This document shows, in pieces, positions 2,450-12,245 of a stretch of DNA of 14,408 nucleotides (positions within the stretch are counted from its first letter, which is position 1; every line of letters starts with the position of its first letter). A program made the translations under genes and the position numbers. Below the pieces are notes generated by a model. It made no database searches. It worked only from the letters and a program-made list of their open reading frames with translations, and was not told the origin of the DNA. Source of the DNA: a bacterium (GTDB lineage: Bacteria > SM23-31 > JAUVVT01); contig JAUWXV010000074.1 in NCBI GenBank assembly GCA_030616165.1, forward strand, positions 1 through 14,408, given 5' to 3'.

Positions 2450-3523
2450 TTACCCTCTATTTTTTTCCAAATACCTTTTAATTCTCTTTAAGCCTTCTTT
2501 TATCTTTTCAGCATCAAGGGCATACGAAAACCTCACTCTATCATCTATACCAAACCATTCTCAAAAGTAAGTAATTACTTTATATTTATCAAACATATCT
2601 AAAACAAAATCTCTCGGATTTTTAACCTTGGGCAGAACATAAAATGCTCCCTCCGGTTCCCATAAATCTAATCCCAGATTTAATAAACCATTATAAATTA
2701 AATCTCTTCTCTCCCTCCATATTTTTAACTGGTTATCTATGAAATCTCTTGAAACCTTGGTAGCTGCGTATGCCATTTCCTGCCCCAATATATTAGTATT
2801 CATCGATGTATGGGTTTTAATCGCAATAATTTTATTTACTAATTCCTGGTCTAATGACCATAAATAGCCGACCCTGAAGCCACACATAGCATATGTTTTT
2901 GAAAAAGAGTTTATTGTGACAACATGGGGTCCTTCTATCAGATAATTTTCTCTGACATAAATGAGGTCTTTATAAACCTCATCAGATAATACATATACAC
3001 CCAGGTCGCATGTTAATTTTTCTATCTTTTTTAAAGTTTCCACAGATTCGACTCTCCCGGTAGGATTAGATGGAGAATTAATAATCACTGCTTTACAGTC
3101 TTTTACTTTTTTTTCAAAATCATCAAAATCAATCCTACCCTTAACTAAATCTGTAAAAACAGGCTCCATATCGGCAAATCTTACGCAATTAGGATAAGAA
3201 TAATAATATGGTCTTGGCACTAAAACTTTATTCTTATTCTTATTCCCCATTCGAGCTATTGTCCTCAAAGTCAAATCCAGAGCTTCAGAAGCGCCATTAG
3301 TAATTACAAAGTTGTCTGCGTTTGAGTTAGGATACTGCTTAGACAAAGCCTCTCTTAAATTTGTCTGTCCTTGTATAAGCCCATATTTAAAATCTCTATA
3401 TTCTGGTAATATTTCATATACCTCTTTTGGGGGAGGTAAATCAGGTTGTCCAGAGCCAAATGAAATAATATCATCTCCATCAAGACCAATAAACATAGAG
3501 GGTGATAATTCTCTTGTTGCCAT
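2450..3523 (-). pseudogene. PLP-dependent class I/II aminotransferase, interrupted by an in-frame TGA
   Basis: Fold-type I aminotransferase of the aspartate aminotransferase-like class. Numbering from the ATG at 3523: NGASEALD (76-83), SPSNPTG (150-156), SDEVY (180-184) and the PLP-binding Lys209 in SFSKTYAMCGFRVGY. The first reading ends at TGA (2561-2563, codon 321), but the same frame continues for 36 residues with EWFGIDDRVRFSYA, which is the family's normal C-terminal block, including Arg331 that binds the substrate carboxylate, to TAA at 2450. The family usually reads P-G-E-x-F-G here, so TGA sits at the glycine position, consistent with GGA to TGA. A product ending at the TGA would lack the carboxylate Arg. 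The start at 3523 is preferred because AAGGTG lies 7 nt upstream; the alternative ATG at 3529 is only 1 nt from it. It could be a true pseudogene, a sequencing error, or a readthrough gene. The specific substrate is unknown. Confidence 0.85.
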
Positions 3524-3944
3524 TAGCATTCACCTTTTAATTGTTTAAATAATTCAGGTATTAAAAAAATTTGTATTTACTCCCTTGATAGATAACTACG
3601 TTTTGTATTTCCGAGTTGACATTAATGAAAAATTAATTCAAAGACTTCCTTATTGTTACAAGTTGATAATATATAAAATAAAAATGCAGAATAGCAAGGA
3701 TTATTTAATAGATGAATCACATTTGTGGTATCAAGAATTAAATGAGCAGAAAAAGAAATTTCCTGCAAATAAAAAAATACTATTTTATTGTTGTATATTT
3801 TTGTTTTTATGATTATTTTAAATTATAAAAATAGATTTCCTTGCAAGAGACTTTCAGAAAGATTGTCTTGTATTGTATTAATTTACAATGCTATCTTTAT
3901 CGTCTTGAAAAACAACATAAACAAATAATAAATTGGAGATAAGA
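3524..3944. other. Divergent AT-rich intergenic region
   Basis: A 421-bp region between the divergently oriented aminotransferase and cyclic-nucleotide-domain genes. Promoters for both should lie here, but no well-spaced -35/-10 pair stands out. A 75-codon open frame at 3585-3812 lacks a ribosome binding site and resembles translated AT-rich sequence, so it is not called. Confidence 0.5.
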
Positions 3945-4406
3945 ATGCTTCCTACTAAAGTATTTAAAAAAAGGCAATTCATCTATTCTGAAGGTGAAAC
4001 TGCCCGCGAGATGTATATCATAACAAGTGGTAATGTGAAGATTGTTAAAAGTTTGAAAAAAAATCCTGTTGAGATAGGAATCTTGGAAAAAGGGAGTTTC
4101 CTGGGTGAGGTTGCGATGTTTCGCAATGATAAGCACAGTGCAACTGCAATTGCCGAAAAAGACCTTGAACTTGCCGTGATAAATAAAGAGATTTTCGACC
4201 AGCAGTTAGAACTCTTGCCGAATTGGTTTCAAACCCTTATTCGGAACATGGCAGACCGGCTTTATGATGCTCTTGGACAATTGAGCAGCCAAACCAAGGA
4301 ACCACCCTCAACCGCCGAATCAAAAAAGGATGAACATGCAGAACCTCAAGCGGATAAAAAAGAAGAGAATACTACTCCCGATGAAACTTCAAAGACTAAC
4401 GGTTGA
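3945..4406 (+). CDS. Cyclic nucleotide-binding domain protein (Crp-like sensor domain, no HTH)
   Basis: A 153-residue protein made almost entirely of one cyclic nucleotide-binding beta-roll (about 5-105): FIYSEGETAREMYIITSG is the usual strand-turn start, and GSFLGEVAMF (50-59) begins the phosphate-binding cassette. In this cassette the usual Arg-Ser-Ala is replaced by H64-S-A (KHSATA), so canonical cAMP/cGMP binding is doubtful. Residues about 115-153 are a polar, Lys/Glu-rich low-complexity tail. There is no DNA-binding domain, so it may act through protein contacts. The ATG at 3945 is chosen because GGAG lies at 3935-3938; a TTG at 3933 overlaps that site. Its TGA stop is 2 nt before the ATG of yjbQ, so the two are probably co-transcribed and translationally coupled. 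Confidence 0.85.
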   Translation: MLPTKVFKKRQFIYSEGETAREMYIITSGNVKIVKSLKKNPVEIGILEKGSFLGEVAMFRNDKHSATAIAEKDLELAVINKEIFDQQLELLPNWFQTLIRNMADRLYDALGQLSSQTKEPPSTAESKKDEHAEPQADKKEENTTPDETSKTNG

Positions 4407-4408
4407 GT

Positions 4409-4807
4409 ATGGAAAGTATAACTGTTAAATCAAGTAAACGTAATGAACTAATTGATATTAATCATGAGGTGGAAGATATTGTATCCAAGTCCGGAATTAA
4501 GGAAGGTATTTGCAATATCTATGCACCTCATGCTACCTGCGGAATTATAATTAACGAAAATTACGACCCAAATATTTGTCTGGATATTGTTGATTTATTG
4601 AAAGAGTATGTTCCACAAGGAAAATGGAGGCATGACAGGATAGATAACAATGCGGATGCTCATATAAAGGCGGCTATTGTAGGACCTTCTGAAACAATAC
4701 CTATATCCAAAGGAAGATTGGTGATGGGAAGATGGCAGTCTATTATGCTGGCTGATTTTGACGGACCACGAGAAAGAAAGATTGTCGTAAATATTATTAA
4801 AAGTTAG
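4409..4807 (+). CDS. yjbQ: YjbQ / UPF0047 family protein
   Basis: A 132-residue single-domain protein of the YjbQ (UPF0047, COG0432) family. Some members complement thiamine-phosphate synthase activity and the family is often labelled 'secondary thiamine-phosphate synthase', though its physiological role is unsettled. Family blocks are clear: APHATCGIIINENYDP (39-54), NADAHIKAAIVGPSE (81-95) with His85, and GRWQSIMLADFDGPRER (107-123). His41 and His85 match the conserved His positions. Length is normal for the family. An in-frame TTG at 4403 overlaps the end of the previous gene; the ATG at 4409 is the more likely start. It forms a probable two-gene operon with the cyclic-nucleotide-domain gene. 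Confidence 0.9.
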   Translation: MESITVKSSKRNELIDINHEVEDIVSKSGIKEGICNIYAPHATCGIIINENYDPNICLDIVDLLKEYVPQGKWRHDRIDNNADAHIKAAIVGPSETIPISKGRLVMGRWQSIMLADFDGPRERKIVVNIIKS

Positions 4808-4854
4808 ATGTTAAAAATATTATTTATAGAGCGGTTGGCTTTTTTTTGAGAAAA

Positions 4855-4944
4855 TGTCTCATTTTGTCTCAATTTTATCTCATTTTGTCTCAATTTGTCT
4901 CAGTTTGTCTCATTTTTGGGGTGATTTTGAGACAGATGAGATAG
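4855..4944. repeat. Tandem TGTCTC repeat array with inverted copies
   Basis: TGTCTC occurs at 4855, 4865, 4886, 4896 and 4906, with a variant (TATCTC) at 4876, i.e. six units spaced 10-11 bp inside T/A-rich spacers. Shortly after, the inverse words GAGACA (4929-4934) and GAGAT (4938-4942) follow. A further TGTCTC occurs at 4979-4984 inside repeat copy A. The helical-turn spacing could suit a multimeric DNA-binding protein, but no binder is identified. Confidence 0.75.
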
Positions 4945-4994
4945 TTAAAGTTTTTAATTATCAATAGGTTACATTATTTGTCTCACTTTTTTTT

Positions 4995-5041
4995 AACCAC
5001 AGAGACCACCCACAGGGCAGGCAGAGTATTCCTCTGTGGTT
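4995..5041. repeat. REP-like inverted repeat inside copy A
   Basis: AACCACAGAG (4995-5004) pairs perfectly with CTCTGTGGTT (5032-5041) around a 27-nt, GC-richer centre. It sits exactly where copies A and B stop matching and is absent from copy B, so it looks like a small palindromic insertion. Words of the form CCACAGAG...CTCTGTGG recur in many uncultured bacterial genomes as dispersed palindromes (general knowledge, not checked here). Confidence 0.65.
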
Positions 5042-5061
5042 TAATATTTTATCCTCGCTTT

Positions 5062-5169
5062 TCATAGAACTTTTGACACTGCACATAATTTTTCAAAGTT
5101 ATTGATTTCTCTTTTATTAATGAGTTCGATAAATTTTCGTTTTTTTGCGGATAAGGTTTTGTAATTCAT
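5062..5169 (-). pseudogene. Small reverse-strand ORF in copy A, possible element remnant
   Basis: A 35-codon frame starting at the ATG (5167-5169) at the edge of the shared 108-bp block and ending in TGA (5062-5064). The peptide starts MNYKTLSAKKRKFIELINK. It is positioned like a gene whose upstream region is the shared AT-rich block. The K-R-K-F-I-E-L style N-terminus loosely resembles helix-turn-helix or small-terminase starts, but it is too short to assign. It may be the surviving N-terminus of a degraded gene. Confidence 0.3.
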
Positions 5170-5341
5170 AATTATGTTATATTATATAATTATTATATCA
5201 TTCGATGTTAGTATAAATAATAACATATATAATATAATATATTTTTCGAGGGAAGTCAAGGGAAATTTTGAGGAATCATATTAGAGTTAGAATTGTGATT
5301 AATTTTTTGATGATTTAAATATAAAAATAAATATTTTTTAC

Positions 5342-5368
5342 TTGACTTTTAAAGGTTTTAAATATAAT
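5342..5368 (+). promoter_or_regulatory. Possible promoter for the 5616 gene
   Basis: TTGACT (5342-5347) and TATAAT (5363-5368), but with a short 15-bp spacer. The corresponding part of copy B has TTGACT (6881-6886) and TATATA (6904-6909) with a 17-bp spacer. Conservation of the -35-like word in both copies is suggestive, but the sequence is so AT-rich that chance matches are likely and the distance to the next gene is about 250 bp. Confidence 0.3.
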
Positions 5369-5615
5369 ATATTATTGAGCTAACACAATCCTAATTTTAT
5401 ATAATAACCGTCTAATTATTAAGTTACATATTAGTTAGGCATGATTAAATGTTATTTATATACTAATCCACTGTTTTTACGATGAATTCTTTGAAAAAGA
5501 TAATATTGGGCCATAATTTCATAACCCAACCTGTTCTGGTATTTCTGCAGAATACACCAAATTACCAGGGCAGTTGGATAAACAAAATTAATAACAAAAA
5601 AGGAGGAAACACGTC

Positions 5616-5921
5616 ATGGCTAAGTATATTGCATTACACACCCTTATAAAAAGTGCTGAAGAGGTTTCTAAGGCTCTCAACGAAGCATCGCCTAAGCTTG
5701 CGCGGGCAATGGCAGCGGGCGAAACTCCCTGTAAGTGTATAAAAACCTGGAATCCTTCAGCATACGGAAGGACAGACTACGCGTTCTGCCTATGGGAAGC
5801 TGACAAACCTGAAGATATTGAGGCCACTTTGAAGGCATTCGGATTTCTTGAGTTTGTTACACTTGATTCTATGCAGGTTGATGAGATAGATTGGGAGCAA
5901 TTGGCTAAAGAAGTTGGTTAG
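5616..5921 (+). CDS. Small conserved-looking protein of unknown function
   Basis: A 101-residue soluble protein with a strong ribosome binding site (AAAAAGGAGG, about 8 nt before the ATG). It starts MAKYIALHTLIKSAEEVSKAL and has a C(x1)C pair (C69, C71 by count near TPCKCIKTW), an aromatic strand DYAFCLWEA, then PEDIEATLKAFG and VDEIDWEQLAKEVG. The alternating strand/helix pattern suits a small alpha/beta (dimeric ferredoxin-like) fold, as in GYD or DUF3303-type proteins, but no family is recognised with confidence. No transmembrane segment or signal peptide. It lies between the two duplicated elements and 368 bp upstream of an attC site in matching orientation, so it may be an integron cassette gene; the long gap to the attC site argues for caution. 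Confidence 0.75.
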   Translation: MAKYIALHTLIKSAEEVSKALNEASPKLARAMAAGETPCKCIKTWNPSAYGRTDYAFCLWEADKPEDIEATLKAFGFLEFVTLDSMQVDEIDWEQLAKEVG

Positions 5922-6288
5922 TCAGAAAACTGACGGTCAGTCTAATGCCCATCAAAGTTTTAATAAGATGCAAGTTTATGTAAGGTGAAAAGCTGGCTTG
6001 TTTTTGAGTCGTTAATAAAATTTTGTTTGCAGCAATATTCAAATCAAAAGTACTGGTAAATAATCTGGATCAAACATTAAATATTGCCGCTCACAATTTG
6101 GAAGTTTTATACTATTATCGAGCCAATTTCATTTTTATCTCTATTTTCAAATTAGTCTTGCATTTTAAACAGAATATTTTTAAACAGGTTTTAGTCAGTT
6201 TGTCATTTTCAATTATTATTAACCAGTTTATCAAATAACAAGAATCAGGCATTTTTTTGTCATAAGTTAAGTAATAATAGCGATTTTT
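5922..6288. other. Non-coding stretch before attC1
   Basis: A 367-bp AT-rich gap between the small gene and attC1. A 71-codon open frame from a TTG at 6023 has no ribosome binding site and a composition of translated AT-rich DNA; the long reverse-strand frame overlapping attC1 is an antisense reading of that site. No terminator with a T tract was found. Confidence 0.5.
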
Positions 6289-6422
6289 GCCTAACAATTG
6301 GCTGGAGCTGACCGAAAATGTTCTGTGCAAATTCAATTGTTTTGATTTCCGCATCAGCGTATTATTAAATCCGAACGTACAGTGCGCCGCATGTTTTCGG
6401 CAGCTCAGCCATGCCGTTATGC
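6289..6422 (+). other. Integron attC recombination site (attC1, 134 bp)
   Basis: R'' GCCTAAC (6289-6295) and R' GTTATGC (6416-6422) enclose an imperfect palindrome. On the left arm GGCT (6300-6303), GAGCTG (6305-6310) and CCGAAAA (6312-6318) pair with TTTTCGG (6394-6400), CAGCTC (6401-6406) and AGCC (6407-6410). The left arm has two unpaired bases, G6304 and A6311, the extrahelical-base pattern that orients attC recombination, and it gives + orientation. The apical part (6319-6393) is large, as in long VCR-like sites. R' departs from GTTRRRY at one base. Confidence 0.87.
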
Positions 6423-6523
6423 GGCTATAGAGATTCATGATCGCCTTGGGTATCTTACCCGAGGCACATAATAAGCGGGCTTCATAGCCCAATAAATAAA
6501 GGCAATAGATGAAACGATATCGT

Positions 6524-6912
6524 AGATAATTAAGGTTTTAATTATCAAGAGATTACATTATTTGTCTCACTTTTTTTTATTTCTGCAAACAATTCTAATT
6601 ATTCCGTCCGGATTCAGATTTTTTTCGGTCAATTCACCTGATTTATTATATTTTTTTTCGAGATAGATTTTTATTGCCCTGATTTCTCCCTGCAGCGCCA
6701 TTCATAATTATGTTATATTATATAATTATTATATCATTCGATGTTAGTATAAATAATAACATATATAATATAATATATTTTTCGAGGGAAGTCAAGGGAA
6801 ATTTTGAGAAGTTATAAATTAAATTTAGAATTGTGATTTATTATTTTAGTAATTTTAATATAAGAAAAAAAATTTTTTACTTGACTTTTAAATATTTATA
6901 TTGTATATAATT
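6524..6912. repeat. AT-rich duplicated element, copy B
   Basis: Second copy of the element at 4939-5370. It shares the 26-bp word (6553-6578), the 108-bp identical block (6701-6808) and a diverged tail with TTGACTTTTAAA (6881-6892). Its middle (6579-6700) is unrelated to that of copy A. It begins about 100 bp after attC1. A small hairpin pair (6444-6464, and GGGCT/AGCCC at 6477-6490) lies in the short interval between attC1 and this copy. Confidence 0.85.
6567..6701 (-). pseudogene. Small reverse-strand ORF in copy B, possible element remnant
   Basis: A 44-codon frame from the ATG at 6699-6701, at the border of the 108-bp shared block, to the TGA at 6567-6569 inside the shared TGTCTCAC word. 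The peptide begins MALQGEIRAIKIYLEKKY and ends RNKKK. The sequence looks like real protein rather than noise, and the A-L-x-G-x-x-x-A-I-x-x-Y-L pattern loosely recalls the C-terminal part of some small-terminase-like proteins. It occupies the same slot as the ORF in copy A but is unrelated in sequence, as if the two copies kept different parts of one ancestral gene. Confidence 0.35.
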
Positions 6913-7378
6913 ATTAATATAATATATTTTTTATATGAATGTTAACTGTATAATTATTGAGTTGATTATACCTTAAATTAAACTACAATAATAGAAGCTA
7001 AAAGATTAAATCCCCATAGAATTATCGGGGATGCGGCTTCGTTCAATCTGATTTTATACTTAATTGAGTTTGGTTCGAATAAAGTTTTGAAGTAGTTTAA
7101 ACTATGTTGTCTTTTTGTAATCATTTAAGGATTATTACGGTTCAACTACGTATAAAATCCTTAAAGTTATCACTAAATTTTTTATGAATAATAAGCGTAA
7201 TTAAGTTGAGTTACTTAACTTAGTTAGGCTACTACTATCAAAATCAAAATACATCCTATAAATAATTTATATAAATGTAAAAAGTTTTTTTGATAGAGTT
7301 ATTAACATTTTAATATAGAATTTGTTCTTTGAAATAGGAGATATCAACAATTTACAAAGACTCTTTGTGGTTTATATG
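6913..7378. other. AT-rich non-coding stretch before the IS110 element
   Basis: 466 bp without a supported gene. It contains hairpin-forming words: ATCCCC (7010-7015) / GGGGAT (7027-7032), and TTTAAGGATT (7124-7133) / AATCCTTAAA (7156-7165). Neither is followed by a T tract. GTTAGGC at 7223-7229 resembles an attC R' core but has no folding partner. Confidence 0.5.
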
Positions 7379-7390
7379 GTTATCCAGATT
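7379..7390. repeat. Right-end copy of the IS110 boundary repeat
   Basis: GTTATCCAGATT, matching 11 of 12 bases with GTTATCCACATT at 8795-8806. The transposase stop codon (7380-7382) lies inside it, so the right end of the element is almost nil. Confidence 0.6.
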
Positions 7391-8558
7391 TAAGCATAAT
7401 CAGCATAATATGTGTTAATTTTTTTGCGACATAGACAAGAGCTTGTTTTTCAGATTTTCCTTGGGAGATTTTTTTATAGTATAAAGATTTCATTTCGCGA
7501 TTGTGTTTAATGCTTGCCACAGCAGCCATGTAGAGTGCCCAGCGGAGATATTTAGGTTCTCTTTTAGAGATTTTATTTTCGCGTTTTTTATCTCCTGATT
7601 GGAATATTTTAGGGAAGAATCCTATATATCCGATGTATTGAGTAGCGGTGCTGAAAGCTTTTCCTTCGGTTCCGGTAGTAGAGATAACAGCAGCAACGGT
7701 TTTTAATCCGACGCCGGGGATAGTCATCAAATTATTTCCAGGGAAATCATCATTGTCATCTTTAGGATTCAATGTTTCGGCAATTTCCTGCTCCAGAAGT
7801 TCTATAGAATGGTTAAGTTTTTCAATATGTTCAAATAGTATGGTTAGTTTAAGTCATCGTGCCTGCTTTGATCTTCCGGAATAGATAGAATTTTTTGTAG
7901 TGTCAATAAGCTGATTAATAATACTTATGTTGAAGTTATTGCCCTGAATATTTCTGACTATTTTTTCGATATGTTTTACTTTTGCCTTAGCTATGTGTTT
8001 TGCAGTAGGATATTTTTTCAGTACTTCTATAGAGGCTATTAAAAAAGGATTCTTAAGAGCCGTTTTAGTGTATTCAGGAAACACCAGGGATAAAAGACTC
8101 ATTGCTTGTCTCTGATAGTCTTTTCTGTTTTTCATTAACTCATAACGGAGTTTGACAATCTCTCTGAGGTTTTGCACAGTTTCTTCTGGGACAAAAGAAG
8201 AGCCATAATGATTTGAACGTAATAAGTCAGCAATAACATAAGCATCGATATCATCTGTTTTAGCTTTTTTCATTAGAGCCTGATGGAATTTGTTGGTCTG
8301 GTACGGATTTAAAAGTATCACTTTGAATTTTTTTTCGGCAAGAAAACTATAAAGGTTCTCCCAATAATTTCCGGTAGCTTCAAGTCCGACTAATAAATTT
8401 TCCTGATTTAAGTTTAGTTTTTCAAGTTTTTCCACAAGCTTGTGAAAGTCGTTTAATGAGCTTTCAATAGTGAAGGATTTGCATAAGGCTTCTCTGTCTG
8501 AATCTAATATTACACAGCGATGTTTCTTTTTAGAAACATTTATTCCGAGATAGTTCAT
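7380..8558 (-). pseudogene. IS110 transposase (DEDD/serine), interrupted by an in-frame TGA
   Basis: A 392-codon frame with a single TGA at codon 235 (7854-7856). The N-terminal part is the RuvC-like DEDD domain: GINVSK (5-10), GLEATGNYW (58-66) with Glu60, and KAKTDDIDAY (98-107) with Asp102 and Asp105. The C-terminal part, in the same frame after the TGA, has a coiled coil, IPGVGLKTVAAVIS (280-293) and FQSG (319-322) with the probable catalytic Ser321, then ISKREPKYLRWALYMAA. Family members usually read GIDVSK, so the first acidic residue appears to be Asn7 here. The ATG at 8556-8558 is supported by AAGGAG (8569-8574). The TGA separates the two catalytic halves, so this copy is probably inactive unless read through. 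Confidence 0.88.
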
Positions 8559-8581
8559 AGTTGATATTCTCCTTATTTTTA

Positions 8582-8780
8582 AATTCAGCAGGAAGCTTTT
8601 CATGCAAAACAATCTCTAATATAGTCTGGGAAGATAAATGGTCTCCTGATCTATCGGAGCCATATCATCCTAAATAAATATTCCCAGAGATTGCCCCGCA
8701 TGAAGCAACATTCTTTTTTAAATGGTATCCACCTTAATCGGACCCATAAGGAGGTTTTAAAATTGTCATCCTGCTGAATT
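8582..8780 (-). ncRNA. Candidate IS110 bridge RNA
   Basis: The segment upstream of the transposase folds strongly. A perfect 12-bp outer pair closes it: AATTCAGCAGGA (8582-8593) with TCCTGCTGAATT (8769-8780). Inside, a long stem pairs 8595-8598 with 8703-8706, 8601-8605 with 8698-8702 and 8610-8617 with 8686-8693. The AAAA (8606-8609) facing CCCC (8694-8697) becomes GGGG/UUUU wobble pairs only in reverse-strand RNA. It continues with GGGAA/TTCCC (8628-8632 / 8681-8685) and a terminal hairpin (ATGG, CTCC around a 9-nt loop 8647-8655). A second hairpin pairs 8732-8736 with 8747-8751 around a 10-nt loop. IS110-group elements are known to encode a bridge RNA in exactly this place. RNA ends and loop roles are inferred. 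Confidence 0.72.
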
Positions 8781-8794
8781 GTTAAACAGTTTAA

Positions 8795-8806
8795 GTTATC
8801 CACATT
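8795..8806. repeat. Left-end copy of the IS110 boundary repeat
   Basis: GTTATCCACATT, an 11-of-12 match to the right-end copy. TATCCAC here (8797-8803) also occurs at 8726-8732 inside the candidate bridge RNA, whose transcript would therefore be complementary to one strand of the boundary, as expected of a guide segment. Confidence 0.55.
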
Positions 8807-8900
8807 ATTTTGTTGATAGTAAAAAGAAAGAAAAATCTACTACTACAATTATTATTTATAATTAACATGTAATATATGAAATTTATACTAGGAGGTCAAA

Positions 8901-11249
8901 ATGGATAAATCATCTCGCACTCGCATATATATAGAACTGGAGGACATCAGCAAGGCTGCGACCTTAGATTCAGCAGTTAGCGCTCTGGGTAAAGGCCTCA
9001 AACTTGCATCTGCTTTCCCAAAACTTGAACCAAATGAACGCGCGCTTGAACGCGCGAAGAAACGTGGTACTGGAGTAAAGGTCGATCTTTCAAGGCATAT
9101 GGTCATCGATGTAGATGATCCGAATATCGATGTTGATGAGGTTCGTCGCTTGCTGCTTGCTCGACCTGAAGTCCGTTCTGTGTATGTCGAGGAGTTTCCA
9201 CAACCGCTGTATAACCCTAATGACCCAGATGGGCTTGACTTCGCCTTAACAGACCAACAACTAACCCACGCTACCAACCCGTCGGCCTTAGACATTACCA
9301 TGGGCGCTGGAATTATTATCGGCATCATCGAAATGCCCTATTGGAATACTGGAGCCGATTATACGCGTCCTGAATTGGGAGGAACAGGCGACCAAGCAGC
9401 TGATTGGGCTGCAATTCAGGCAGGTACTCATGCCAAATTTGTTCTTTACACCGACGACGTAGGTAATCCTATTGACCCTTTTGGTACCGGTCACGGGGAT
9501 CGCACAGTCCCGCGTTGCGTGGCGATTGAAGACAACAACATTGACTATTTGGGTACAGCACCGCAAGCAAAGGTCATGTTTGCCTATCAAGACTACATCT
9601 CCGGTGCGATAAGACAACTAACCGCTTTGGGGGTGGATGTCATTTCAATTTCGTACACGGGCTCTTGGGGGAGACGGTTAGCTGTACAGGAAGCCGTTGC
9701 TAATGGTGTTGTTGTGGTGGATGCACATGCGAACAATACCAATGCAGAAACCGAGTTGCCCAAACCTTACGAGGCAATTAATGTTGGCGGGTATCGGCAA
9801 AGTGATTATTCCACAGCTCGTTCCTGGGGCATTGGTTTAACTCTTTTGGCAACCTCCACATACGGTACAACATATGAGTCTTATGCGACACCTACCGTAG
9901 CCGGTGCTGCGGCACTCCTATTGGCTCAGAATCCCAGTTGGAATCCGTATGACGTTCATCGGGCGCTAATCCAAAGAGCATTTAAACCCACCCAGATGAG
10001 TGCAGATGTATTCACTCGTAGCCATGGCTGGGGATTACTTCGGATCCATGACGCGTTACAACTCAGCCTAGCGGATTTGTTGCCCTTACCACCTGTGGAC
10101 GTCGAGACGGCAATTCACGCTGGCAGGGTAATCGAAGTGACCTGGACTGACCGCCCTATCACGAATTACGCTGGGGTTCGGATTGTAGGACGTTTGAATA
10201 CGCCACCGTCAACCAGTACTGGCAATGAAATAGAAAGAGACATTGCAGTTGGTACCAATATCGCTTATATCGTCCCACCAATAAGTGGCAATTGGTATTT
10301 CGCGGTATTGGGCAAAGACACAGCAGGCCGGTATTCTGAGGTAGTAGAATACATCCAATTTGCCTTCGAACCTTACATTTATAGATGTCCTAAAGCGCCG
10401 AAGATCAATCCGGTAGCTTCTCCCACTACAACTGGAGCAGTCACGCTCACAGGAACCAAAGAACGACGCACGGCTATCCATATTCGAGGTATTGAGGCGG
10501 TTCCACTCGATGATTCTGAAGCCTGGACTGCAACCGTTATGTTGGATCCAGGTGGGAACCTAATCCCCGTTACTGCTGTGGACGAGTATGGTGAGTCAAG
10601 CGATCCGGCCTACGCATTCGTTGATAGGCAAATGTACGTACGTCTGGCGGGCGATACGATGACAGGCCCTCTACAACTCGACAATGCGGGTACAACCGGC
10701 GGCTTGAAAATTCGCAGAGATAGCAGTGGCCTTCCTGAGTGGGCAATTAAGACCAGCGGCGAGCACTTGATCTTCATTGAACCGGATGATAATGATCGAG
10801 AAGTGCTGAGAATTAGGGATATCTCAGGGACTGGATCGGCGGCTCTTCAGTTGGCCGCGCTTTCAGGGGCCACTCTGAGTGCGGAGCAACTCAAGAGCCT
10901 GACCCAGACTGCCATTGTCCGTCGGTTAAAAGCGGATAACGGCACATCCGTACAATCAGTTAATCTTGGCTCTTCTCGAAAGGTCCTTGCTTTCATAGCA
11001 ATGACCAGCAGCGATCCTAGGCACGATCACGACAGAGGAGATATGTATGCAGCGGACATTTTCCGCGTCGATGGGAATCGACCTCCTGGTACATATTCGT
11101 ATGGTGGGGATCATCTGGGGCCAATTGGTGCATCTTCCAATTTGCTACCATCATTCTATATTGGCACAGTTTCAACCATTGAATTTCGCCTTAGGTCTTT
11201 TCAAGATGCAACAGTATGGGCCGTGGGTGTGGTACTTAGCCAACCATGA
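8901..11249 (+). CDS. Subtilase (S8)-like protein fused to Ig/Fn3-like and tail-fibre-like domains
   Basis: A 782-residue protein without signal peptide or membrane helix. Residues about 1-100 end in VRSVYVEEFPQPL and resemble an I9-type propeptide. Residues about 130-390 are subtilase-like: His198 in GTGHGD, Asn278 in the oxyanion region, and Ser327 in ESYATPTVAGAAALLLAQNP, close to the family's GTSMATPHVAG. The usual catalytic Asp is Glu144 (IGIIEMPYWNTG), and HGTHVAG is altered to HGDRTVPRC, so activity is uncertain. About 396-490 looks Fn3-like, about 500-573 like a bacterial Ig repeat, and YVRLAGDTMTGPLQL (579-593) is the motif common in phage tail fibres, followed by a beta-rich tip. 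AGGAGGT precedes the ATG. It is followed 30 nt later by a small gene and then attC2, all on +, suggesting a two-gene cassette. GC is clearly higher than in the AT-rich DNA on its left. Confidence 0.83.
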   Translation: MDKSSRTRIYIELEDISKAATLDSAVSALGKGLKLASAFPKLEPNERALERAKKRGTGVKVDLSRHMVIDVDDPNIDVDEVRRLLLARPEVRSVYVEEFPQPLYNPNDPDGLDFALTDQQLTHATNPSALDITMGAGIIIGIIEMPYWNTGADYTRPELGGTGDQAADWAAIQAGTHAKFVLYTDDVGNPIDPFGTGHGDRTVPRCVAIEDNNIDYLGTAPQAKVMFAYQDYISGAIRQLTALGVDVISISYTGSWGRRLAVQEAVANGVVVVDAHANNTNAETELPKPYEAINVGGYRQSDYSTARSWGIGLTLLATSTYGTTYESYATPTVAGAAALLLAQNPSWNPYDVHRALIQRAFKPTQMSADVFTRSHGWGLLRIHDALQLSLADLLPLPPVDVETAIHAGRVIEVTWTDRPITNYAGVRIVGRLNTPPSTSTGNEIERDIAVGTNIAYIVPPISGNWYFAVLGKDTAGRYSEVVEYIQFAFEPYIYRCPKAPKINPVASPTTTGAVTLTGTKERRTAIHIRGIEAVPLDDSEAWTATVMLDPGGNLIPVTAVDEYGESSDPAYAFVDRQMYVRLAGDTMTGPLQLDNAGTTGGLKIRRDSSGLPEWAIKTSGEHLIFIEPDDNDREVLRIRDISGTGSAALQLAALSGATLSAEQLKSLTQTAIVRRLKADNGTSVQSVNLGSSRKVLAFIAMTSSDPRHDHDRGDMYAADIFRVDGNRPPGTYSYGGDHLGPIGASSNLLPSFYIGTVSTIEFRLRSFQDATVWAVGVVLSQP

Positions 11250-11278
11250 GTCTTAATTGCGAAATAAGGAGGATTATC

Positions 11279-11566
11279 ATGTCAAAGATGAATCACAATG
11301 AGCCAATGTACATACTCTATAATGGAGATAATGGGCGTATTCTTGGCAATTACTCAAAGTACGATGCAGAAAAAGGGTGTTGCGTGGGATGCGACCCGGA
11401 GGAGGTAATTAAGGTTGCAGCAGGTGCATCCCCAGAACTGAGTTTGGGTAGTTTTGAAGTCTTGGAGGTTATACTCGAAGAAGGCAGTGAGCTAAAGGAT
11501 TTCAAAGTCGATCCAAAAAAAAGAGAGCTTGTAGCTCGAAAACCAGAGAGAGCAGGAAAAAAATGA
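11279..11566 (+). CDS. Small partner protein of the subtilase-like gene, function unknown
   Basis: A 95-residue soluble protein. The ATG at 11279 is chosen for its strong site AAGGAGG (11266-11272, 6-nt spacer); an upstream in-frame ATG at 11246 overlaps the subtilase stop codon and is not needed. The sequence opens with a strand-turn-strand, MYILYNGDNGRILGNYSKYD, then C(C)VGC (residues about 35-39), an acidic middle, and a basic end (VDPKKRELVARKPERAGKK). The 'YD..tGrIlG' opening and 'f.VDPkk.eLv.k' ending recall small proteins encoded beside phage tail fibres, but no family is recognised. Tight spacing to the subtilase gene implies co-expression; the pair is followed by attC2. Confidence 0.75.
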   Translation: MSKMNHNEPMYILYNGDNGRILGNYSKYDAEKGCCVGCDPEEVIKVAAGASPELSLGSFEVLEVILEEGSELKDFKVDPKKRELVARKPERAGKK

Positions 11567-11664
11567 GGACTTCATTAGCTCCCGAATAGTGATAGGCGAC
11601 TTTGATTCTGAAACAACCTAAATAAAGGTACAATTGGGATCAACTTTAACGTCGGTGATTTCTT

Positions 11665-11726
11665 GCCTAACAATCGGTTCAAGCTGACGGCGCTAACCGC
11701 GCCGCAGCTTAACCTTAACGTTAGGC
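11665..11726 (+). other. Integron attC recombination site (attC2, 62 bp)
   Basis: A textbook site. R'' GCCTAAC (11665-11671) and R' GTTAGGC (11720-11726) are perfect inverse complements. The stem is GGTT (11676-11679), AAGCTG (11681-11686) and CGGCGC (11688-11693), then a TAACC loop (11694-11698), then GCGCCG (11699-11704), CAGCTT (11705-11710) and AACC (11711-11714), all paired. C11680 and A11687 are the extrahelical bases, on the left arm, giving + orientation. The layout matches the well-known attC sites of resistance-gene cassettes. Recombination is expected between G11720 and T11721. Confidence 0.95.
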
Positions 11727-12239
11727 CAAGAACATTTTTGAATATTCGGTGATGGAACTCGTTAGGCAAATCTTGGTGTGGAGTCTCAATTTCATGGGCT
11801 CCATCGGAATTATGTTAATAGTCTACGGTGTCGTATCGCTGGTAACCTCCAGCATGTGGGCACCATTGGAGAAAATCGCAGAGTGGATAGCAACAATTAC
11901 GACACTGATAGCTGTATTCTTTACCGTGGTTTCCATATATTTTCCCATCAACGTTAGGAAACCAGACCCACTTAGTCTCTATTTTACGGCGCCAATCGTC
12001 ATCATAGCTGTATTTGTAGCAGTGGTTTACACGTTATACAGCCGCACTGTTCTGCCTGTTCACCTTGTCAGTGGTTTTGCAATTCTTGGACTTAGTGGTG
12101 CATTGTTCAGGATCTTGAGCCGGTAGGCAGATTTGCATGCGCGAGGTAGTTTGTTGGCCTAACTCGGCACTGCACCTGACCGCCATGGCTTTTTTCAAAT
12201 TTTGATTATTGATAGAGGCGGCAGGTGAACCGCATGTCG
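11721..12239 (+). mobile_element. Complete integron gene cassette
   Basis: The 519-bp interval between the expected crossover points of attC2 (G11720|T11721) and attC3 (G12239|T12240). It carries one gene that starts 26 bp after attC2 and stops 30 bp before attC3, in the orientation expected of a cassette. This compact one-gene architecture is diagnostic of integron cassettes. Confidence 0.85.
11752..12126 (+). CDS. Cassette-borne four-helix membrane protein, function unknown
   Basis: A 124-residue hydrophobic protein with four predicted membrane helices (about 12-33, 45-64, 76-96 and 105-122) and short connecting loops, two of which are charged (PLEKIAEW; NVRKPDP). There is no signal-peptide cleavage motif and no recognisable catalytic motif. 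A GTG at 11749 is directly upstream in frame; the ATG at 11752 is taken, but neither has a clear Shine-Dalgarno sequence, which is common for cassette genes. It sits alone between attC2 and attC3, with nothing else in the cassette. No family is recognised; cassette membrane proteins of this kind are frequent and mostly uncharacterised. Confidence 0.8.
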   Translation: MELVRQILVWSLNFMGSIGIMLIVYGVVSLVTSSMWAPLEKIAEWIATITTLIAVFFTVVSIYFPINVRKPDPLSLYFTAPIVIIAVFVAVVYTLYSRTVLPVHLVSGFAILGLSGALFRILSR

Positions 12240-12245
12240 TTAAAC
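12157..12245 (+). other. Integron attC recombination site (attC3, 89 bp)
   Basis: R'' GCCTAAC (12157-12163) and R' GTTAAAC (12239-12245, fits GTTRRRY). The stem pairs CACCTG (12173-12178) with CAGGTG (12222-12227) and CCGCC (12180-12184) with GGCGG (12217-12221); A12179 is the extrahelical base on the left arm, giving + orientation. The apical loop is about 32 nt and the outer arm is less well paired than in attC2. No further attC is seen to the right. Confidence 0.82.

Follow-up and report, generated by a model that had tools for sequence, protein, structure and literature searches.

The window, which is the whole stretch of DNA that was analysed (14,408 nucleotides), is the complete contig C233 of its genome. 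It carries three attC sites, attC1 (6289 to 6422), attC2 (11665 to 11726), and attC3 (12157 to 12245), all on the plus strand. Genes for YjbQ, a CRP-like protein, an aminotransferase, and an M14 peptidase lie upstream of attC1, and GYD and UxuA-like genes lie downstream of attC3. The genome comprises 3.74 Mb in 343 contigs and is 90.22% complete. The binning of C233 appears sound, because dozens of the genome's other contigs carry members of its repeat family.

Structure and scores of the three attC sites

The first-pass annotation had placed the three attC sites at these positions in one orientation, and the R″ and R′ cores that it described were present at each. The cores (RYYYAAC/GTTRRRY) pair at the ends of all three sites, with 5–7 of the 7 positions complementary. 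attC1 is 134 nt long with a long variable terminal structure; its R″ core GCCTAAC begins at 6289 and its R′ core GTTATGC spans 6416 to 6422, the arms being GCTGGAGCTGACCGA and TCGGCAGCTCAGC with an extrahelical G and A on the left arm. attC2 is 62 nt long, with R″ GCCTAAC at 11665, R′ GTTAGGC at 11720 to 11726, and an extrahelical C and A on the left arm. It resembles the aadA attC of class 1 integrons, which is 60 nt long and has the same extrahelical C and A and the same loop type, although the window holds neither an IntI1 platform nor a resistance gene. attC3 is 89 nt long with imperfect arms, R″ GCCTAAC at 12157, and R′ GTTAAAC at 12239 to 12245. Only the second extrahelical base (the A in CTGAC) was found in attC3, and there were mismatches near the position of the first. 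Thus, the claim of paired arms with extrahelical bases on the same arm applied with two bases to attC1 and attC2, but for attC3 it was reduced to one base and a mismatched arm.

Covariance models were built from 19–22 independent attC sites, none of them from this genome, taken from plasmid integron cassettes and environmental attC (IMG/VR contigs and a few genome contigs). In the reference alignment, 89% of the pair cells were paired and there were 64 double changes, a result matched by none of 500 shuffles, indicating that the reference fold is supported by strong covariation. Model R1 was made from 22 independent attC, and model R2, which combines the R1 arms with an open 60 nt loop, was made to reach long-loop attC; both are home-made models distinct from that of IntegronFinder, and their E-values are rough. 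On the window, R1 gave attC2 a score of 62.1 bits (E 3.5e-15). It missed long-loop sites, attC1 among them, probably because of its maximum hit length. The three top matches of R2 were attC2 (59.6 bits, E 2.9e-12), attC1 (36.2 bits, E 3.8e-7), and attC3 (17.6 bits, E 0.0042), so that the covariance check proposed in the first-pass annotation, run with these home-made models, was significant at all three sites. We also used a pair-aware log-odds scorer of the paired arms in which the loop length is free. It gave 73.4 bits for attC2, 66.5 for attC1, and 40.0 for attC3, and the maximum over 150 dinucleotide-preserving shuffles of the window was 13.0. Bottom-strand folding yielded z-scores of −6.45, −3.83, and −1.78 for attC2, attC1, and attC3, respectively. 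attC3 is the weakest site, with a low covariance score, a weak fold, and a mismatched arm. An Rfam scan of the window returned no match.

The hairpins might instead be chance or non-cassette palindromes, such as terminators or repeats, and the fold of attC3 is only moderately above that of its shuffles. This reading is scarcely conceivable given scores of 40–73 bits against a shuffle maximum of 13, and attC sites elsewhere in the genome adjoin the stops of ORFs. For attC1 and attC2, it is refuted by the R1 and R2 scores together with the scorer shuffles. The first-pass annotation had named recurrence of identical palindromes as an observation that would speak against it; no second copy of attC1 was found in the genome's assembled contigs, and the objection does not apply. 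Judged from sequence, we regard all three sites as true attC, every one on the plus strand.

The 519 bp cassette and the stretch between attC1 and attC2

attC2 and attC3 are spaced 0.43 kb apart. Between their G^TT cut points lies a complete cassette of 519 bp (11721 to 12239, +), as the first-pass annotation had proposed (12239 − 11720 = 519). This interval contains a single ORF of 125 aa (11749 to 12126, +), which is hydrophobic and membrane-like by eye and had no match in Pfam, NCBIfam, PADLOC, plasmids, or viral contigs.

The sequence from attC1 to attC2 (6417 to 11720, +) is far longer, at 5.3 kb, and is either one cassette that insertions have lengthened or a run of cassettes whose own attC have been lost. 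It begins with an interspersed intergenic repeat (6524 to 6969, +) bearing a promoter-like TTGACT...TATATA. Another copy, the first in the window, lies at 4842 to 5440 (+), upstream of a 101-aa ORF and not within the cassettes themselves. The family, marked by TGTCTCA tracts, an AT-rich palindrome, and the promoter-like sequence, occurs on dozens of the genome's other contigs. An attI-like identity was considered for the repeats flanking attC1 and was dropped on account of this wide occurrence. The repeat sits upstream of many genes, and its promoter-bearing part also precedes attC-bearing blocks on two other contigs, C204 and C172. The 101-aa ORF (5616 to 5921) and its upstream 300 bp have an 89% identical duplicate on contig C24 (L130, 631 to 936). 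No convincing ORF was found in front of attC1.

The repeat is followed by an IS110-family transposase in two frames (7380 to 8612, −), both halves of which matched NF033542 (E 8e-36 and 1e-26); this broken copy is probably inactive. Insertion sequences of the IS1111-attC group target attC sites. Such targeting was unsupported for the present copy, which is separated from attC1 by about 1 kb and from attC2 by more than 3 kb. Next comes a subtilase-domain (S8) protein of 782 aa (8901 to 11249, +), recognized by Pfam PF00082 (E 2.7e-13) and by subtilisin structures (E 5e-9). The GC content of this region is about 0.50, compared with 0.20–0.35 in the adjoining upstream stretch. By eye, the protein has a Glu where the catalytic Asp is usual (IIGIIEMPYW) and a tail-fibre-like AGDTMTGPL stretch towards its C-terminus. 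The last ORF (95 aa, 11279 to 11566, +) ends 98 nt before attC2 and had no family match in searches that included Pfam, NCBIfam, and PADLOC. Plasmids and viral contigs yielded no relatives of the cassette proteins.

Search for an integron integrase and assignment of the locus

The ORFs of the window and the family searches revealed no integron integrase, in agreement with the first-pass annotation. In the whole genome, 13 tyrosine-recombinase matches were obtained, and those that we read were XerC/D-like or phage/ICE-like, the IntI-specific insertion (as in IntI1) being absent from the translations read. No piece scored above 85.7 bits with the integron-integrase model TIGR02249, whose cut-off is 265 bits, and the central region of the model was unmatched in the best genome matches. 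There was no IntI, and hence no complete integron, in the assembled ~90% of the genome, nor any intI remnant with the IntI-specific region. Contig C22 (L023) carries two broken tyrosine-recombinase remnants (899 to 1075 and 4236 to 4686), in which no IntI-specific region was seen. In five other genomes of the phylum, which are 63–83% complete, none had an IntI over the cut-off.

The first-pass annotation had left two options for the window, a CALIN and the far end of a chromosomal array. Three attC in the same orientation and no integron integrase in the window ORFs or the 90% complete genome speak for the former. The cluster is unlikely to be the tail of a longer array on this contig, because ordinary genes close it on both sides. 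The usual clustering rule of IntegronFinder joins attC within 4 kb. Since attC1 is 5.2 kb from attC2, this rule would list it separately from the attC2–attC3 pair. The region is thus very probably a small CALIN of three attC, with one complete and at least one enlarged cassette, on a chromosome with no detectable integron integrase.

Further attC sites in the genome and in relatives

About seven other attC were found on five other contigs of the genome. The covariance models located sites on C204 (15423 to 15495), C172 (4935 to 5005), C92 (14780 to 14838), and C311 (7708 to 7796 and 5908 to 5976, with a third at 5213 to 5301), and C260 carries a degenerate one. The count is a lower bound, as the whole-genome R2 run missed attC1 and perhaps other long-loop sites. 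The sequences are strongly divergent between loci. On C204, C311, and C172, ORFs stop about 0–27 nt from the attC: a TIR-domain ORF stops 5 nt before the site on C204, an exonuclease-BRCT ORF ends within the R″ of the site on C172, and the ORF pair between two attC of C311 encodes a SIR2-like protein and a 158-aa partner. On C311 (L109, 5213 to 8174), the three attC follow one another, with type IV pilus genes on one side and the end of the contig on the other. On C24, attC-half-like sequences seen by eye are interrupted by a RAYT-type (Y1 transposase) element, and we read an ORF between them as DUF3795-like.

In the phylum's other five genomes, attC matches were confined to G005, which belongs to the same class and had 11, and G002, which had one weak match. 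G005 had no IntI over the cut-off. Its contig C262 (L112), 10.4 kb long, carries five attC in one direction (3285 to 10045) together with an IS110 element, and this array is clearly a CALIN. By our own reading, toxin–antitoxin-like ORFs are among its cassettes, with RHH, MazF-like, and HigA-like members. In a genome of another phylum (G006, with 15 attC matches), contig C44 (L118) bears an integron-integrase remnant (2911 to 3190), in which model positions 1–55 are joined to 262–304 in another frame, 5.7 kb before an attC at 8845 to 8916.

Discussion

The locus shares with the CALINs defined by IntegronFinder (PMC9024848) at least two attC of the same orientation that enclose cassettes, and the lack of an intI in the vicinity. 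It differs in the wide spacing of attC1 and attC2, in its sparsely sampled uncultured phylum, and in the scatter of attC over six contigs. Like the sedentary chromosomal integrons of Vibrio and Xanthomonas, it has attC-bounded cassettes, and defence- or toxin–antitoxin-like ORFs occur in other parts of the genome as well as in a relative; here, however, there is no IntI that could mark an adjacent attI, cassettes are few per locus, and the attC are heterogeneous. In the CALINs reported from archaeal and other MAGs (PMC9668308), most attC clusters likewise lack an integrase and are distributed over several contigs of a fragmented MAG, but those were archaeal, whereas the gene content here looks bacterial.

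The bottom strand of each attC would fold into a hairpin, which the tyrosine recombinase IntI would cut at G^TT. An IntI that the lineage formerly possessed, or one active only transiently on incoming DNA, may have inserted the cassettes, which would now be fixed unless IntI arrives in trans. The cassette with the subtilase gene would have been enlarged later by the repeat element and the IS110 copy. CALINs are common in MAGs and still usable by IntI in trans (PMC9668308), and intI loss, rearrangement, and off-target insertion have been proposed as their origins (PMC8618304).

The attC on six contigs are mostly single, and several are flanked by ordinary genes. This pattern would be expected if single cassettes had been inserted at scattered attG-like spots by an IntI from elsewhere, with no resident integron needed here, and insertion of cassettes at attG has been reported (PMC12444791). 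The row of three attC on C311, reaching the contig end, is more array-like. In addition, synteny with the other genomes offered no usable orthologue for locating an empty site, the downstream UxuA relatives being only 38–39% identical, and the left boundaries of the cassettes could not be placed. Off-target insertion of this kind is somewhat unlikely. The multi-attC pieces on C311 and on C262 of G005 would suit one resident sedentary chromosomal integron that was broken up by rearrangement and lost intI by deletion, and the IS110, RAYT-type, and other repeats in which the genome abounds could drive rearrangement. Such a remnant is a tentative possibility, weakened by the lack of an intI remnant with the IntI-specific region in the genome and by the strong differences between the attC of different loci. 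Home-grown arrays have near-identical attC.

The integron could also be live, with intI in the tenth of the genome that the assembly lacks and only outlying cassettes in the window. An assembly of 343 contigs at this completeness, with several attC near contig ends (C204, C311, and C172), leaves room for it; nevertheless, it is quite unlikely in view of the five relatives without an IntI over the cut-off and of a window cluster that has no integrase on either side. As for the two other origins, scatter and locus-specific attC fit off-target insertion and the breakdown of an old integron alike. It is conceivable, albeit rather improbable, that this bacterium of an uncultured phylum acquired single cassettes, many of them defence-like, one by one at distinct points of its chromosome and without a resident integron, by uptake through the integrases of foreign cells or mobile elements.

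Whatever its origin, the locus is another member of the known CALIN class, in a new host lineage. Less ordinary are the lineage itself and the scatter over six contigs, where most attC stand alone and the sequence differs from site to site. An undersampled lineage is thereby added to the range of integron cassettes. In its chromosome, cassettes are scattered, often beside TIR-, SIR2-, and exonuclease-type ORFs that may have a role in defence; defence genes in cassettes are already known (PMC12444791 and works cited there). If the scattered insertions are off-target events, genomes without an integrase would belong to the network of cassette exchange, and surveys of cassettes that start from intI would overlook them.
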